Origin: Candidatus Gastranaerophilales bacterium
GTDB lineage: Bacteria > Cyanobacteriota > Vampirovibrionia > Gastranaerophilales > Gastranaerophilaceae
Direction of reading: 5' to 3'
Assembly (NCBI GenBank): GCA_944323625.1
Contig: CALUTD010000004.1
Coordinates: forward strand, 1 to 64,000
Length of the DNA stretch: 64,000 bases
Shown: positions 3,418 through 11,252 of the stretch, piece after piece
How positions within the stretch are numbered: position 1 is the stretch's first letter
Layout of the letters: each line of letters opens with the position of its first letter
The notes under the pieces: model-generated
The model's input: only the letters and a program-made list of their open reading frames with translations
What the model was told of the DNA's origin: nothing
The model's database searches: none
Program-made: the position numbers and the translations under genes

Positions 3418-4743
3418 ATGAGCGCAAATATAAACACATATTTGAAGAAGATAGTAATTATTACACAGCCTGAAGCAGTTGATACAACCGGGGGTGCTAT
3501 TACATCATTTATTAACATTTCTGATTATTTATCAGTGAATTATACAGTTTACGGAGTTTGTTATTCAAAAAAAGCAGGTAAGCCCAAAGTAAAAGACAGT
3601 GTAAATTTTCTAAATTTGTATAAATATTACCAAGGAGTTTTGGACTATAGTAAATCATTAAATAAATTTATTGAAGAAATTAATCCTGATTTAATAATAT
3701 TTTTCTTTCCAAATTTATATGCACAGGCTAATTTGAACGTAAAATTTAATAGTATACCAAGAATGCTGTTATTCAGATCAAGACCTGATTTTTATTTCAA
3801 ATATTTTAGTGAAATTGAAGATGAATTAAAGAAACAGTATATAAATACAACGGCGCAAATTTTATTTCCTTCTTATAAAAAACTTTTACCCGATTTTATA
3901 AAAAACGGACCTGTTGTATATATTGCCAATCCTACCAAACAGGATTTGCAATATATTGACATAAGTAAAGAAAAAAAGAGAATCATATATTTATCAAGAA
4001 TAGATTCTGTTTGGAAAGGACATGATTTTCTTCTTAAAAGTTTTTCACTTATTGCTAAAAAATATCCTGATTGGAGTTTAGATATATATGGTCAGTCGCA
4101 GCCTCCGAAAAAGGAAGAAGAATTAAAAGAATACGCTAAATTTTTGGGAATAGAGAAACAAGTAAACCTCTGCGGAATAACAAAAGAACCGTTTAAAACT
4201 TATTTAAATTATGATTTTTGTGTTTTTCCGTCATATTTTGAAGGTTTTCCTCTTGGACTCGCGGAAGCAATGAGCACAGGACTGCCTGCTATAGGTTTTA
4301 GGGAAACATCAGGAGTCAATGAGTTAATAAAAGATAATATTAACGGATTTTTATGTAAAGAAAATTATAAAGACTTTGCAAAAAAGATAGAAATTCTTGT
4401 AGTCAATAAGAAATTGCGCACGGAGTTCAGTAAAAGCGCAATAAAAGAAATGCAAAAATATAGTGCGGAAAAAATATTTAATAAATGGGAAACAACTGTT
4501 CAAAAAATCTTAAACAGAGAAGAAGTTAATGATGAAGAACTTCTTATGTCAAAGGAATCGGACGTAAAAATTTTTCCGGTTGAAAAAATTATTAAAATGG
4601 AAAATACACCAATTAGTTATAAGTTTTTAGATAGAATATTTTCCATAAAAAATTGTGTAAGAAGCGGAGTCAAACGTAAAATAATTTCAATATTCGGTAT
4701 AAAAATTACTTTAAAAAGGAAAAGGAAAAAGATTAATGGATAA
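3418..4743 (+). CDS. Family 4-type glycosyltransferase (GT-B)
   Basis: This 441-residue protein has the GT-B layout of GT1/GT4-type transferases. An N-terminal acceptor domain is followed by the nucleotide-sugar domain from about residue 185 (RIIYLSRIDSVWKGHDFLL). The donor-site motif FEGFPLGLAEAMSTGLP carries the EX7E pattern. The last 60 residues are a basic tail after the catalytic domain. It probably adds a sugar to a lipid-linked glycan on the cytoplasmic face of the inner membrane. It is the first gene of an eight-gene glycan operon and overlaps the next gene by 8 nt. Donor and acceptor cannot be read from the sequence. Confidence 0.9.
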   Translation: MSANINTYLKKIVIITQPEAVDTTGGAITSFINISDYLSVNYTVYGVCYSKKAGKPKVKDSVNFLNLYKYYQGVLDYSKSLNKFIEEINPDLIIFFFPNLYAQANLNVKFNSIPRMLLFRSRPDFYFKYFSEIEDELKKQYINTTAQILFPSYKKLLPDFIKNGPVVYIANPTKQDLQYIDISKEKKRIIYLSRIDSVWKGHDFLLKSFSLIAKKYPDWSLDIYGQSQPPKKEEELKEYAKFLGIEKQVNLCGITKEPFKTYLNYDFCVFPSYFEGFPLGLAEAMSTGLPAIGFRETSGVNELIKDNINGFLCKENYKDFAKKIEILVVNKKLRTEFSKSAIKEMQKYSAEKIFNKWETTVQKILNREEVNDEELLMSKESDVKIFPVEKIIKMENTPISYKFLDRIFSIKNCVRSGVKRKIISIFGIKITLKRKRKKING

Positions 4744-5509
4744 ATTGACTGTCGGAATAGCAGGCTGCGGTTTTGTCGGCGGTACATTAAAAAGATGGAT
4801 AGAAGAACATAACCCTGAAGTTAAATTATTAATTTCTGATCCTTTCCTCGGGGGGGGGGATTTTTCATATACAGATGACATATCTCATGCAGATGTAATT
4901 TTTATTTGTATTCATATTCCGACAGAAAAAGACGGTTCTCAAGATTTAACCGTATTAAAAGAAATTATTAACAGTATTCCCGAAAACAAACCTATTTTTA
5001 TACGCACAACTATTTTACCCGGAACAACTGACAGTTTAAAAAAAGAAACATCCAGGAATGTAAATTTCATGCCGGAATTTTTAACTCAAAGAACGGCGTA
5101 CGAAGATTTTTGTTCACAAGATATGATTTTTACGGCAGAAACGGAACTGTTAAAAAAAGTGTTTCCCGGTAAAAAATTTATTGAAATGACCTCACTTGAG
5201 GCGGAGATAACGAAATATGCTCATAATGTATTCGGTGCCTTAAAAGTTACGTATTTTAACGGAATATACGATTTATGCAGGCGCTATGAGGCAAATTACA
5301 GAAAAGTACAGCAAGGAATAATGTTAAGCGGGTATATAAATTTTCCGCATACTCAAATTCCGGGTCCTGACGGTAAATTCGGATACGGAGGAAAGTGTTT
5401 TCCGAAAGATGTAAATGCACTGACAAAAATGACTGAAGGACTTCCTTTACATAATTTATTAAAAGAATTAAAACCTTTAAATAAAATTTTTAGAGGAGAG
5501 GATTTATAA
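4736..5509 (+). CDS. Short UDP-glucose/GDP-mannose dehydrogenase-family protein, G-tract gene in ON frame
   Basis: An N-terminal Rossmann fold (GCGFVG, G10/G12/G15) is followed by the family's central helical domain and the catalytic cysteine motif GGKCFPKD (C221). Family members oxidise UDP-sugars to uronic acids with two NAD. At 257 residues it lacks the C-terminal UDP-binding domain of usual members (about 390-450 residues), so it may be a divergent dehydrogenase or depend on another subunit. Residues 39-41 (Gly-Gly-Gly) are encoded by a run of ten Gs at 4850-4859; one inserted or lost G would end translation early. It overlaps both neighbours, as TAATG with the epimerase gene. Confidence 0.8.
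   Translation: MDKLTVGIAGCGFVGGTLKRWIEEHNPEVKLLISDPFLGGGDFSYTDDISHADVIFICIHIPTEKDGSQDLTVLKEIINSIPENKPIFIRTTILPGTTDSLKKETSRNVNFMPEFLTQRTAYEDFCSQDMIFTAETELLKKVFPGKKFIEMTSLEAEITKYAHNVFGALKVTYFNGIYDLCRRYEANYRKVQQGIMLSGYINFPHTQIPGPDGKFGYGGKCFPKDVNALTKMTEGLPLHNLLKELKPLNKIFRGEDL
4850..4859 (+). repeat. Homopolymeric G10 tract inside the dehydrogenase gene
   Basis: This is a run of ten Gs in a roughly 30% GC region. The reading frame continues correctly to the catalytic cysteine motif, so this length corresponds to the ON state. Two downstream genes in the operon have comparable tracts. Confidence 0.9.
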
Positions 5510-6528
5510 TGAAAATTTTAGTCACCGGAACAGCAGGTTTTATCGGATTTTTTACGGCAAAAAAATTATTGGAAGAAGGATACACCGTTATTGGGATAGA
5601 TAATGTTAATGATTATTATGACGTGAATCTAAAAGAAGCAAGATTAAAAATATTAAAAGAAAATGATAACTTTATTGAATACAGAGAAAATATAGCCAAT
5701 AAAAAGAGAATCAGTGAAATTTTTAAACAGGAAAAACCCAAGAGGGTTTTAAATCTTGCGGCGCAGGCAGGAGTAAGATATTCATTTGAAAATCCTTATG
5801 CATATATAGAATCAAATATATCGGGATTTTTAAATATATTAGAAGGCTGCAGGAACAATAATATCGAGCATTTGGTCTTTGCTTCAACGGCTTCTGTTTA
5901 TGGTGCAAATACAAAAATGCCCTGGAAAGAAACTGACGGTTGTAATCATCAATTAAGTCTGTATGCAGCTACAAAAAAATCGAATGAAGTTATGGCGCAC
6001 TCATATTCGCATTTATTCAATATTCCTACAACGGGGCTCAGGTTTTTTAATGCATACGGTCCTTGGGGCAGACCTGATATGGCTTTATTCTTATTTGTAA
6101 AAAATATTATTGAAGAAAAACCGATAAATGTTTTTAATAACGGCAAAATGGTTCGGGATTTTACTTATGTTGAAGATATTGCACAAGGGGTTATAAAGGT
6201 TTTAACAGGTAAAGTTCCTGAAAAAGACCTTGAAATGAGGCACGATTTTGCAGTTCCGAATCCGTCAAAAAGCGCTGTTGCTCCTTTCAGAATATACAAT
6301 ATAGGGAACTCAACCCCTGTTGAACTAATGAAATATATAGAAATTATGGAAAAAGAAACCGGTAAAAAAGCAATTATAAATTATATGCCTATTCAACCCG
6401 GTGAAGTTGTTAAATCAGAAGCAGATAATAGTGAGTTTTATGAAACATTCGACTTCAAACCTCATACAAACGTAGAAGAAGGCATTCACAAATTCGTTAA
6501 ATGGTTCCGAGAGTATTATGGAATATAA
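5509..6528 (+). CDS. NAD-dependent epimerase, UDP-glucuronate 4-epimerase-like
   Basis: This 339-residue extended short-chain dehydrogenase has the NAD-binding motif GTAGFIG at residues 7-13. The N-terminal sequence IDNVNDYYDVNLKEARL is typical of UDP-glucuronate 4-epimerases, and the catalytic pair is Y152/K156 (YAATK) with Ser/Thr near 127. RFFNAYGPWGRPDMAL follows. The likely reaction interconverts UDP-glucuronate and UDP-galacturonate, which suits the uronate-forming dehydrogenase encoded just upstream. A related UDP-sugar 4-epimerase activity cannot be excluded. Its start overlaps the stop of the previous gene (TAATG), so translation is coupled to the G-tract-bearing gene before it. Confidence 0.85.
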   Translation: MKILVTGTAGFIGFFTAKKLLEEGYTVIGIDNVNDYYDVNLKEARLKILKENDNFIEYRENIANKKRISEIFKQEKPKRVLNLAAQAGVRYSFENPYAYIESNISGFLNILEGCRNNNIEHLVFASTASVYGANTKMPWKETDGCNHQLSLYAATKKSNEVMAHSYSHLFNIPTTGLRFFNAYGPWGRPDMALFLFVKNIIEEKPINVFNNGKMVRDFTYVEDIAQGVIKVLTGKVPEKDLEMRHDFAVPNPSKSAVAPFRIYNIGNSTPVELMKYIEIMEKETGKKAIINYMPIQPGEVVKSEADNSEFYETFDFKPHTNVEEGIHKFVKWFREYYGI

Positions 6529-6553
6529 AAAATCACCTAAAAGGAGAATAAAA

Positions 6554-7697
6554 ATGAAAGAACTAATACCGTTATTTAAAGTTTTTATGTCAAATAGTGT
6601 GGATAAACCTCTTTTGGATGTAATTCACAGTGGATGGATTGGTGAAGGACCTAAAGTACAGGAATTTGAAACCAATCTGAAAAAATACACGGGGGGGGGG
6701 GAATTTAGGACTTGTTACTCTTAATTCGGGAACTTCTGCCCTTCACTTGGCATATCATTTAGCTTTACATCAAAATGATTATAAAGGGTATTATAATTCT
6801 AATACTGATGAAATAATAACAACCCCAATAACTTGTACGGCAACAAATACACCTATATTAAGTAACGGAGCAAAAATTGTTTGGGCTGATGTAGATCCTG
6901 TTACAGGTTCAATATTACCTGACGATATAGAGAGAAAAATAACTAAAAATACAAAAGCGGTTACAATGGTACACTGGGGCGGAAACCCTTGTGAAATTGA
7001 AAAAATCAATAAAATAGCTTCTGAGGCGGGTATTAAAACCGTAGAAGACGGCGCCCATTCTATGGGAATGGAATATAAAGGAAAGAAATTCGGTAATCAT
7101 TCCGATTATTCAATGAATTCTTTACAGGCTATAAAACATTTAACCTCTGTAGACGGCGGGCTATTGTGGATAAAAAATGAAAAAGATTTTGAAAGAGCTA
7201 AGTTACTTCGTTGGTACGGTATAGACAGAACTATTCGAGAAGGCATTGATTTAAGATGTGAGATTGATGTACCTGAAGCAGGTTATAAATTTCACATGAA
7301 TGATGTTTGTGCCGTTATCGGAAATGAGAATTTGAAACACTTGGATGAAATACTAACAAAACACAGAGATAACGCAAAATTTTATGATGAAGCATTTAAA
7401 AATCACAAATCAATAACCGTTGTACCTGAGAATCCTGACGGAAAATCATCATACTGGCTGTATACAATACACATAAACAACAGAGATGAATTAATGGCAA
7501 AATTGAAAGAATTAAATATTATGTCATCAAAGGTACATGCAAGAAATGATACTCATTCGATGTTTAAAGAATTCAAAACCGAGCTTCCGGGAGTTGAAAG
7601 CTTTAACAGGACTCATTTATGTATACCCGTAGGATGGTGGGTAACAAAAGAACAAAGAGAATACATAGCAGAACAAGTAATTAAATATGCAAAATAG
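6554..7697 (+). CDS. DegT/DnrJ/EryC1 sugar aminotransferase, frameshifted (OFF) by an 11-G tract
   Basis: The start ATG at 6554 follows AAAGGAG. The first frame ends at 6724 after only 56 residues because of eleven Gs at 6691-6701. With ten Gs the frame runs on as TGGGNLGLVTLNSGTSALHL to the stop at 7697, giving a complete 380-residue PLP-dependent aminotransferase. Family marks are LNSGTSALHLA, EDGAHSMGMEYKGKKFGNHSD and the lysine-bearing SLQAIKHLTSVDGG, expected to form the Schiff base. Such enzymes convert a 4- or 3-keto nucleotide sugar to an amino sugar. Coding quality stays high past the tract, so this looks like a reversible phase-OFF state or a sequencing-length error rather than a decayed pseudogene. 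Confidence 0.85.
6691..6701 (+). repeat. Homopolymeric G11 tract inside the aminotransferase gene
   Basis: Eleven consecutive Gs sit within the N-terminal coding region. One fewer G restores an uninterrupted reading frame. Length change by slipped-strand mispairing would toggle the enzyme ON and OFF. Confidence 0.9.
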
Positions 7698-7705
7698 GTG
7701 TAAAA

Positions 7706-8287
7706 ATGATTATAGAAGAAAATTTTAGACTAAGACTGCTAGAAAAACAGGACTTATTTTGGCTTAAGAAATTAAGGGAAAATCCTGTTATAAATGAATA
7801 TTTAGGTACCTTCTGTCTTTTAAACGATTTTAGGCAGGAAAATTGGTTCAACAATCTTCAAAATGATGAAAAAAGATGTTATATGGTTTTCGAAAAACAA
7901 AATTTAACCAATTATTCTGATAATAATTCCAACACAGAAGAAAATATGATTGATAAACTCGGGATTGTTAGAATTTCCAATATTGATTTAATCAATCGTT
8001 CAATGTGCGTTGGCGGAGATATTGACCCTCGTTTTCAAGGGAATAAATATGCAAAAATAATGTATAAATTAATTTTTAAATACGGTTTTAAATGTATGAA
8101 TATGCATCGTTTATATCTATATGTATTAGAAGATAATATAAAAGCGCGTAATTGCTATGAAAAAGTAGGATTTATTACAGAAGGCATGCAAAGAGAAGCA
8201 ATATTCAATAACGGAAAATACAAAAATTATTTAATTATGAGTATTTTAAAATCGGAATATCAAGAAAAATATGAAAAGGTGAATTAG
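7706..8287 (+). CDS. GNAT-family N-acetyltransferase (RimJ/PseH-like)
   Basis: This 193-residue GNAT protein of the RimJ/RimL-like Acetyltransf_3 group opens with FRLRLLEKQDLFWLKKLREN. The acetyl-CoA-binding region is DIDPRFQGNKYAKIMYKL, followed by LYVLEDNIKARNCYEKVGF, the usual last motif. Coming directly after a sugar aminotransferase, it most likely N-acetylates the amino sugar that enzyme makes, as PseH-like and FdtC-type enzymes do. A Shine-Dalgarno AGGTG precedes the ATG. Its stop codon lies next to the start of the following acetyltransferase gene. The substrate assignment is by context only. Confidence 0.8.
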   Translation: MIIEENFRLRLLEKQDLFWLKKLRENPVINEYLGTFCLLNDFRQENWFNNLQNDEKRCYMVFEKQNLTNYSDNNSNTEENMIDKLGIVRISNIDLINRSMCVGGDIDPRFQGNKYAKIMYKLIFKYGFKCMNMHRLYLYVLEDNIKARNCYEKVGFITEGMQREAIFNNGKYKNYLIMSILKSEYQEKYEKVN

Positions 8288-8289
8288 TG

Positions 8290-8977
8290 ATGTCAAAATT
8301 AACAAAATGGCTTAGAAAAAATCAAACTTTTAGAGCAAAAGCAGTATCCATTTTTCAAAAGTTATATATTTTATTTTCACAAAAAATAATGTCTGATAAA
8401 GTAAAAATTATCGGTAAACCAAATTTCCTCACGCCTATGATACTTAAAGGCAAAGGCGAATTCAAATTTGCTGACGGCAATACATTTGGAGGAGAAACAT
8501 CACCTAATTTTTATATACCGGGATATATGGAAGCCAGAAACAGCGAAACTGTAATTGAGTTTGGAGAACGTTTTTTTTCTAATAATAATTTAACAATAAT
8601 TGCGGAAGGCGAAAATGAAAAAGGCGGAGTAAAAATAGGCAATGATGTAATGTTCGGTTTTAATGTTACAATAATTGATTCAAATTTTCATGATATAAAT
8701 CCGCTAAAACGAAGAGCAACAAAGCAATGGGGGGGGGGGAATAAAGACCGCAAAAGTTATTATTGGAAATAATTGCTGGATAGGTTCAAATTCTTTGATT
8801 CTAAAAGGCGTACAACTTGGCGATAATTCAATAGTAGGAGCAGGTTCGGTTGTGACTAAGTCATTTCCCGAAAATGTCATTATAGCAGGTAATCCGGCAA
8901 AAATAACAGGAACACTCGATAGATTCTTTCAGGAGAAACAAGATGAAAAAATGGACAATAGCATTTGTAAATTATAA
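8290..8977 (+). CDS. Left-handed beta-helix O-acetyltransferase, frameshifted (OFF) by an 11-G tract
   Basis: The first frame starts at ATG 8290 (a GTG at 8287 is also possible) and stops at 8772 after eleven Gs at 8729-8739. With ten Gs it continues as QWGGGIKTAKVIIGNNCWIG to the stop at 8977, a 228-residue hexapeptide-repeat acetyltransferase. Repeats visible are IGNDVMFGFNVTIIDSNFHD, then IGNNCWIGSNSLILKGVQLG and GAGSVVTKSFPENVIIAGNPAK, the WcaF/maltose-acetyltransferase signature. It probably O-acetylates a glycan residue. The OFF product lacks the C-terminal helix coils that complete the acetyl-CoA site. The ON frame overlaps the following glycosyltransferase start by 35 nt. Confidence 0.85.
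8729..8739 (+). repeat. Homopolymeric G11 tract inside the acetyltransferase gene
   Basis: Eleven Gs directly follow CAAT in the coding region. Loss of one G joins the two halves of the acetyltransferase in one frame. This is the third G run of ten or more in the window, and all three lie in this operon. Confidence 0.9.
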
Positions 8978-9908
8978 AACAACTGTTTATATGAAATGGC
9001 AGTTAAAAATTTTATATGAATTTAATAATCCCGAGGATTTTGAAATAATCATCGTAGATAATTCAAAACCGTTTCAAAAACAAGAATTAGAAGAACTTAC
9101 AAAGTCTTATAATGAAAAATGGAATAACATAAAAATAATTTATAATGAAACAAAAGAAAAAATAGGCTCAAGACAACACGGTGAAGGTCTTACCATAGCA
9201 TTAAAAAAGGCGAATAGCGAATATTTTTTGGCTCAGGATCCTGATTTTTTCTTTGTAATAAAAAATCATCTTAAATTTCTTCAAAAATTTTTAGATGAAG
9301 GTAAAGTTGCAGTAGGAGCCCCGTATACAAGGGGTGTTGGATTGGGACATCCGAAGTTTCCCGCATTATGGGGTGCTGCACATCCGCTAAAATTAATACA
9401 ACATCTCGACTGCCAGGCTGATACTTCAGAATGGGCAAGAAATCAATGTAAAATACGTTTCTCCGATAAACTTGATTTTAGCTATGATGTGGGTTATAAA
9501 ATTCGGGAAGCACTCTCAAGTGAAAATGACAGCACCAATTTTATTGCTTTTGAAAACAGAGAAATAAATGATTTAGCGGCAAAAATTGGTGAACATTCTT
9601 ATGAGGTAGGAACTCAAGCTTATTTATACGATGGGAAAAAAGTTGCATTCCATTTATTTAGAGGGTCTTTTACAGACAGACATATAGATAACTGTGATTG
9701 TAATAAAGATTTATCACAAAAAACATTAATAGTTCGAGATAAACTAAGTAAATATTTCTATGATTATATAAGATTAGGACGCCCTCCCTTTATTTTTCCA
9801 AAAGTTAGCTATTTTAAAAAACTTATTTATAATAAAATTAAATATAGTAATAAAAGAACTTTAGTTTTTTTTAATACTATAAAAGTAAGTTATAAAAAGA
9901 AATCGTAA
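8943..9908 (+). CDS. Family 2-like glycosyltransferase (GT-A)
   Basis: This 321-residue protein begins like GT2 enzymes (WTIAFVNYKTT, then FEIIIVDNSKP) and has the metal-binding segment FLAQDPDFFFV in place of the usual DxD. A conserved GAPYTRGVGLGHPKFPALWGA block follows, and a basic tail ends the protein. It probably transfers a sugar in the glycan made by this operon. Its start, with CAGGAGAAACAAG as Shine-Dalgarno region, lies inside the 3' end of the phase-variable acetyltransferase gene. When that gene is OFF, ribosomes leave about 170 nt earlier, which could affect coupling. Confidence 0.8.
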   Translation: MKKWTIAFVNYKTTVYMKWQLKILYEFNNPEDFEIIIVDNSKPFQKQELEELTKSYNEKWNNIKIIYNETKEKIGSRQHGEGLTIALKKANSEYFLAQDPDFFFVIKNHLKFLQKFLDEGKVAVGAPYTRGVGLGHPKFPALWGAAHPLKLIQHLDCQADTSEWARNQCKIRFSDKLDFSYDVGYKIREALSSENDSTNFIAFENREINDLAAKIGEHSYEVGTQAYLYDGKKVAFHLFRGSFTDRHIDNCDCNKDLSQKTLIVRDKLSKYFYDYIRLGRPPFIFPKVSYFKKLIYNKIKYSNKRTLVFFNTIKVSYKKKS

Positions 9909-9910
9909 AC

Positions 9911-10834
9911 ATGAAAAATAAGAAAATTGTATTTATTACCGCTTCAGATGAAACAGCAGGATCAACCAGAATTAGAGTTTATAAAATTGCAAATGAACTT
10001 AAATCACGAGGATATAATGTTTCTATTAACGAAAATATAAAAAATGCAGATATACTTATTTTTCAAAAAAGCAGTTATAAATCTATAAAAAAAAAGTTTA
10101 GAAAAGCGCTACTAAGCAATAAATTTATAGTTTTTGATATAGATGATCTGTATTCTGACGGACATATCAAGTTCGTAAAATATTCAGACTTGATTATTGC
10201 AAGTTGTGATTATCTTAAAGAGCAGTATTTAAAATATAATAAAAACATAAAAGTTTTAGATGGTACACTGGATGTTATTAATAATGATATTCCCATGCCT
10301 GTTTATAATTTGAAAAATCCTAAAATAGGCTGGTTCGGCACTGTTTCTAATTTACATCTTATTGAAAAATTCGGAATAAAAAATGTTACAACAATAACGA
10401 TGGGCGGAGATATTGAATGGAGCAGAGAAACCGTTGATTATAACATTCAAAAATTTGATTTAATTGTTATTCCGCAGGAAAAAACACCCGTTGGTTTATC
10501 AAAAAGTAATTGCAGGATGTTAAAAACACTGTATTTAGGAGTACCTGCACTTGTAAGCGATATCCCCGAATACATAAAATTAGCGGAATTGGTAAATTAT
10601 CCTAAAGAAATGTTTGTAAAAGATAATGAAGACTGGAACGAAAAAATAGAAAAAATAAAATCAGGCGAAATTAAATTTGATTTTGATTTTGACAGATGCC
10701 GAAAAATACTTATTGAAAATTATGATATTAAACCTATGACGGATAAATGGATCGATACAATTGAATCATCTTATAAAAAAGACAATTTCATAAATCACTT
10801 AAAAAGTATTTTATTGAAATTTAAAATGCCATAA
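9911..10834 (+). CDS. GT-B-like glycosyltransferase
   Basis: This 307-residue protein begins KKIVFITASDETAGSTRIRVYKIANELKS-like, typical of family 4-type glycosyltransferases that start by recognising a nucleotide-sugar Rossmann core. A short second domain contains PKIGWFGTVSNLHLIEKFG and a donor-site-like LKTLYLGVPALVSDIPEYIKLAE. It is shorter than usual GT4 enzymes and lacks a clean EX7E. It is the last gene of the glycan operon, two bases after the previous stop. No O-antigen flippase or polymerase gene lies in the operon, so export must rely on genes elsewhere. Confidence 0.75.
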   Translation: MKNKKIVFITASDETAGSTRIRVYKIANELKSRGYNVSINENIKNADILIFQKSSYKSIKKKFRKALLSNKFIVFDIDDLYSDGHIKFVKYSDLIIASCDYLKEQYLKYNKNIKVLDGTLDVINNDIPMPVYNLKNPKIGWFGTVSNLHLIEKFGIKNVTTITMGGDIEWSRETVDYNIQKFDLIVIPQEKTPVGLSKSNCRMLKTLYLGVPALVSDIPEYIKLAELVNYPKEMFVKDNEDWNEKIEKIKSGEIKFDFDFDRCRKILIENYDIKPMTDKWIDTIESSYKKDNFINHLKSILLKFKMP

Positions 10835-11134
10835 TTTTGCCTTATTTTTTCAGAATTATATATGTTACATAATTCGATAACAAAAATTAAATTTCTAATA
10901 TTTCAAATATATTATTATGAATTAAATAAAAATTCTCTGTTGGTAAGATTCTTAACCTGCAAAGCCGGTTTCTAACTGTATTAACTTATTTTTAACGCAA
11001 AGTAGGTAGTGTGCAAAAAGTTACGTTTACACCCACATAGATGAAGCGCTGTTTGAACAGGTGTTAACCCGTGAGTTACTTAGCCTTAAATTGAAATTTA
11101 CAATACAGATAACAATAAATTTTGATATAAAAAA
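10835..11134. other. Gene-free AT-rich spacer after the glycan operon
   Basis: I see no convincing gene here. The stretch contains GCAAAAAGTTACG at 11013-11025, the reverse complement of part of the motif ending the GC-rich islands at 708-738 and 14488-14520. That may mark a degraded copy of the same element in opposite orientation. No clear terminator was found after the last glycosyltransferase gene. Confidence 0.35.
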
Positions 11135-11208
<74 letters not shown>

Positions 11209-11252
11209 ACATTTTGTTTTCAAGATATTCTGTTTTCATTTCCTTCGCTCAT

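Follow-up and report, generated by a model that had tools for sequence, protein, structure and literature searches.

A probable phase-variable poly-G tract in a DegT-family aminotransferase gene of a Gastranaerophilales genome rich in poly-G pilin leaders

The closest described counterparts of the locus considered here are the poly-G/C tracts of Campylobacter, 53% of which are G9 and 26% G10, with 5–81 variable genes per strain (PMC6321876); in C. jejuni NCTC11168, 29 loci of G7 or more have been counted (PMC4965091). A second counterpart is the Neisseria phasome, comprising pilC with its poly-G/C tract, pgl and lgt, and N. lactamica carries 36–82 phase-variable loci in all (PMC5953494). For Melainabacteria/Gastranaerophilales, a literature search among open-licence papers retrieved no report of phase variation.

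The DNA analysed, hereafter the window, is a stretch of 64,000 nucleotides on contig C4 of a Candidatus Gastranaerophilales metagenome-assembled genome (MAG; 1.99 Mb, 96% complete; genome G000 below). Its run of eleven Gs at 6691-6701, within a gene of a putative sugar aminotransferase, is very probably a contingency tract mediating slipped-strand phase variation of this enzyme. As in Campylobacter, the G runs are intragenic in surface-glycan genes, their lengths peak at 9 and 10, and the ON or OFF state follows from the length modulo 3. The differences are that the organism belongs to another phylum, that its genome holds 122 runs of at least G7 (ca. four times the 29 loci of NCTC11168), that it retains MutS, and that most of its tracts reside in prepilin-like leaders. 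The likeness to Neisseria lies in homopolymer tracts in both pilus-related and glycan genes, but PilC is a pilus-associated protein encoded in one or two copies, whereas here dozens of prepilin-like genes themselves possess a leader tract. The locus would join a known class of poly-G phase-variable genes, and the pilin repertoire around it is the more surprising part.

The operon and the G11 tract of the aminotransferase gene

The tract is situated in an operon with the following features, all on the plus strand:

3418-4743, +: glycosyltransferase group 1/family 4-like gene (PF00534)
4736-5509, +: UDP-glucose/GDP-mannose dehydrogenase-family gene (PF00984, PF03721), its short form also found in L061 and L064
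4850-4859, +: G10 tract in the nucleotide-sugar dehydrogenase gene, in frame (ON)
5509-6528, +: NAD-dependent sugar epimerase/dehydratase (PF01370, PF16363)
6554-6724, +: 5' portion of the DegT aminotransferase ORF, 56 aa in the assembly, ending with TAA at 6722-6724
6691-6701, +: G11 homopolymer, out of frame, frames joining at a length of 1 mod 3
6702-7697, +: 3' portion of the aminotransferase, an open frame of 331 codons (PF01041) subject to purifying selection
7706-8287, +: GNAT acetyltransferase (PF13302)
8290-8740, +: acyltransferase, part before the shift
8729-8739, +: G11 tract in the left-handed beta-helix acyltransferase, out of frame (OFF)
8741-8977, +: acyltransferase, part after the shift, IKTAKVIIGNNCWIG..., with a hexapeptide-repeat end
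8943-9908, +: glycosyltransferase family 2-like gene (PF00535)
9911-10834, +: ORF lacking a Pfam match, resembling a glycosyltransferase by eye, syntenic in L061

The combination of dehydrogenase, epimerase, aminotransferase, GNAT, acyltransferase and glycosyltransferases is what we take, from established knowledge of these families, to be a surface-glycan set. The operon is mostly syntenic with L061. Directly beyond it, a tRNA-Arg (tct) is encoded on the minus strand (window positions 11134-11209).

The aminotransferase gene starts with ATG at 6554, a few bases downstream of a Shine-Dalgarno sequence (AAAGGAG, 6540-6546), and the tract begins at codon 46 (ACG, Thr). As assembled, the frame yields a product of 56 aa terminated by the TAA at 6722-6724, so the consensus shows the gene in the OFF state; the continuing frame contains zero stops over the 331 codons from 6702 to 7697. 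The two halves fuse at a tract length of 1 mod 3, giving a protein of 380 aa at G10. Both the coordinates of the eleven Gs, splitting the gene after residue 46, and the arithmetic of the uninterrupted 380-residue version given in the initial annotation are borne out exactly. The tract is longer than the 7–8 Gs regarded as the minimum for phase variation, it lies within a reading frame, and its length shifts this frame between two intact halves. Chance falls far short of explaining the long G runs of the window: its three runs of at least G8 comprise 11 overlapping octamers, whereas dinucleotide shuffles of the window give an expectation of 0.15.

The membership of the product in the DegT/DnrJ/EryC1/StrS family is evident from a PF01041 match of 220.6 bits (gathering score 19.8). 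Its best NCBIfam match is PseC, but PseC identity was rejected, since the 316-aa part 3' of the tract scored 182.7 bits with TIGR03588, far under the cut-off of 423.5. The nearest solved chains are 4zwv/4xau and CalS13 (4zas). The gene shares with the relatives of known structure (PF01041; 4zwv, 4xau, 4zas, 2fn6) the fold family and the conserved NSGTSALHLA; it differs from them in a glycine-codon insertion before this motif and in falling under the PseC cut-off. The product is accordingly a sugar aminotransferase of the DegT family. Three further, more distant DegT paralogues are present in the genome.

In the four close orthologues (L061-L064) no tract was found in the DegT gene. Their corresponding site reads ..YTGND.LVTLNSGTS or ..YFGNDNLVTLNSGTS, and a single GGx (glycine) codon, within YTGND or YFGND, occupies the place of the G11. 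Because of this, the G11 is an insertion of ca. seven Gs particular to the species of the window, and the joined (G10) protein still bears two glycines more than the orthologues. The "single extra G" of the initial annotation accordingly does not hold, the whole tract being absent from the orthologues. Since none of the four carries it, the site of the DegT tract is young and lacks conservation, a point that speaks against the phase-variation reading; a conserved tract was considered and rejected.

The rest of the gene bears the marks of long-term constraint. The proteins are 84-88% identical to those of the four orthologues, with no stop in the post-tract part, and third-position differences predominate in the post-tract frame. 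Pairwise dN/dS of the window gene against the orthologues is 0.03-0.06 in the pairs where it was computable, no higher than among the tract-free orthologues; with synonymous sites near saturation, this figure gauges long-term constraint and not the last few generations. No sign of decay is evident, in agreement with the earlier remark that the remaining ca. 1 kb is free of other defects.

A further line of evidence comes from the operon neighbors. The dehydrogenase gene contains a G10 at 4850 that is ON, and the acyltransferase gene a G11 at 8729 that is OFF and whose frames, as in the DegT gene, rejoin at 1 mod 3; neither tract figures in the initial annotation of the G11. This acyltransferase was named from its hexapeptide-like sequence, the truncated frame having no Pfam hit. 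Its orthologue in L061 carries a G8 at the same site within an intact ORF of 230 aa, so this is the one tract for which a conserved site with differing length and state could be shown (L061 G8 vs window G11, a comparison between species). Both neighbors support the reading of the G11 as a switch.

One might instead regard the aminotransferase gene as a recent pseudogene, killed by a single expansion of the tract. The orthologues without the tract and the downstream acyltransferase, likewise shifted, are what such a history could leave behind. Still, the 331 codons with no other defect under the constraint just described, the acyltransferase tract shared with L061 and in frame there, and the presence of 122 comparable runs genome-wide, many of them within intact genes, render this explanation improbable. 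Being one of ca. 120 such runs, the G11 very probably switches the gene on and off reversibly and does not mark a dead one. The initial proposal of a gene held OFF is retained in part: the gene is OFF in the consensus and the genome-wide set resembles known phase-variation tracts in size and length profile, but the OFF state is not due to one surplus G. The further proposal that OFF would block the formation of an amino sugar and starve the GNAT enzyme is conjecture.

Under the phase-variation reading, the strands would slip on the G run during replication, changing its length by one, and only cells with a tract of 1 mod 3 would make the aminotransferase, all others yielding a truncated form. 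Since the surface-glycan operon holds two more such tracts, cells would be expected to differ in the displayed sugar. We infer the change of length within a population, a surface amino sugar as the product and the phenotype of the switch.

Poly-G tracts across the genome and the genus

The runs in the window genome (7–11 bases; all lengths are from a single assembly, the MAG consensus) are distributed as one G7, two G8, 63 G9, 49 G10 and seven G11, a profile near that of the Campylobacter contingency tracts; 119 have at least nine Gs. Among the same-genus species (G001-G034), runs of at least G9 number 20-119 in some and 0-3 in others. Tract-rich and tract-free species thus occur within one genus, mostly without MutS loss; MutS is intact in the window genome and nearly all relatives of either kind, and its loss was rejected as the cause of the tracts. 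G028, a genome of the same genus, contains the DegT locus of CANPYB010000001 ("Candidatus Gastranaerophilales bacterium" isolate Lapin-004); tracts also occur there within glycan-type genes, 15/20 in frame and 5/20 shifted. L032 and L064 have an identical tract pattern.

Errors are frequent in homopolymers, and the consensus of a MAG may combine different cells, so it is conceivable that the tract length is an assembly or sequencing error. Yet the tract is present in the gene whatever its exact length, similar tracts recur in independent MAGs of the genus, and the G8 at the homologous acyltransferase site of L061 comes from a separate assembly; an error of this kind is highly improbable.

The surroundings of 92 of the 121 runs of at least G8 were read in the main survey, to which a few more were added, along with the stretches around tracts and pilins. 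In 42 of the 92, the run belongs to a leader directly joined to a prepilin-like gene (FTLAEVLITLVVIGIIAAIT...); another 17 precede a prepilin-like ORF without being joined to it, most such ORFs having their own start and a few of these runs being second tracts close to a joined leader. The remaining 33, including the three of the window, are located elsewhere: at the start of large pilin-like proteins, in a radical SAM/methyltransferase/acyltransferase cluster, in a sugar-isomerase-like gene and in glycosyltransferases (names given by eye, not by profile), with several just upstream of opposite-strand prepilin genes. In the large pilin-like proteins of L148 and L184 (FSLAELLISLL..., FSMAELLIALL...), the run follows shortly past the N-terminal helix, where G10 is shifted and G9 in frame.

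The flanks of the runs show a bias of their own. C precedes ca. 80% of them and A or T follows (G000, G028, G008 and G019), in pilin and glycan genes alike and despite a window GC content of only ca. 31%. CYAC-Gn-TA is a recurrent core, found in either orientation with respect to the pilins. A DNA-level insertion element behind this core is not claimed, as the preference for a preceding C is also found at the glycan-gene tracts of G028.

Taken at face value, these tracts indicate surface diversification via slippery G runs in a gut relative of cyanobacteria that is uncultured and non-photosynthetic, with glycan genes and, above all, pilins as the targets. Its scale would equal or exceed what has been described in Campylobacter and Neisseria. 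Tract lengths in gut metagenomes would then provide a direct readout of commensal surface variation, and many "broken" genes annotated in such genomes are probably switchable.

Prepilin-like genes and their leaders

Matches to the prepilin profile were obtained at 109 places in the window genome, 58 in G008, 54 in G019 and 1-13 in the other same-genus genomes. Two members pass TIGR02532 (N-terminal cleavage/methylation domain; 19.5 and 18.9 bits, cut-off 16.3), and the prepilin peptidase PF01478 is present in the window genome. Dozens of its prepilin-like loci (L001-L030, L134-L193, L224-L243; e.g., L149, L168, L137, L227) carry a G9-11 run eight codons into the leader, which typically consists of a Shine-Dalgarno sequence, ATG, 21 bases, the G run and TA[AG].

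These leaders look like coding sequence on both sides of the run. Ahead of the tract, not one stop occurs in the 231 codons of the ATG frame, compared with 17 and 37 per 198 in the other frames; after it, the pilin frame of the joined type has 0 stops in 368 codons. The two frames meet only at 2 mod 3 in 37/50 leaders of the window genome and in 13/13 of G008. As assembled, six of the 50 leaders are ON and 44 OFF, and all 13 in G008 are OFF. Most are OFF because the common lengths 9 and 10 miss 2 mod 3, the frames being joined at 8 (e.g., G8 in L227) or 11 (e.g., G11 in L137). The in-frame share of the glycan-type genes of G028 (15/20) differs from that of the pilins with a Fisher p of 7e-7, a value overstated because paralogous leaders share ancestry and the counts are non-independent.

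That so many leaders are out of frame yet open on both sides is also what would be seen if RNA polymerase or the ribosome slipped on the G run, bypassing the frameshift and supplying some full-length enzyme at any tract length, in the aminotransferase as well. Homopolymers are generally known to permit such slippage. Against a bypass, G9 and G10 in the same leader would require opposite shifts, in-frame lengths do exist (the G8 and G11 just named), and the length profile agrees with the one seen where changes in DNA length switch the genes (PMC6321876). For the aminotransferase, a bypass has only a slim chance of being correct, and switching by DNA length is preferred.

For the pilins, the simplest reading of the leader frames is a repertoire that is mostly silent at any time, as the sequences suggest; programmed slippage and simple drift of the tracts to an equilibrium length are its rivals. 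We tentatively propose, as a reading with somewhat less than even prospects, a large pilin repertoire mostly silenced by poly-G leaders whose starting frame meets a stop after the run, OFF at the common lengths and ON at 8 or 11, plus a possible phase-variable attenuator in a second type of leader. If the repertoire is indeed silenced in this manner, few pilins would be on in any one cell; the tract-bearing leader should be cut off by the prepilin peptidase, leaving the mature pilin unaffected by tract length.

The second leader type occurs in L169, L150, L176, L012, L024, L183 and others. Here, a G9 lets the tract ORF end 3 bases past the run and a G10 usually 8 bases past it, whereas the third frame extends for 40-100 bases. 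A terminator-like hairpin followed by a T-rich stretch is found 44-89 bases past the tract in 12/13 such leaders, and beyond it a separate start gives MKKIKSFTLAEV or a similar prepilin ORF. The third frame attains the hairpin in 10/13, so tract length could in principle govern termination; possibly, these leaders are phase-variable attenuators in which ribosomes would enter the hairpin only in the third frame. A promoter-like sequence between hairpin and pilin casts doubt on this idea.

In G008, another species of the genus, the coding strand of the prepilin leaders (L244-L262) has C9 and the opposite strand the core CCGCCAC-G9-TAGA. It is the core of G000, inverted relative to the gene, and the 13 leaders read are all out of frame.
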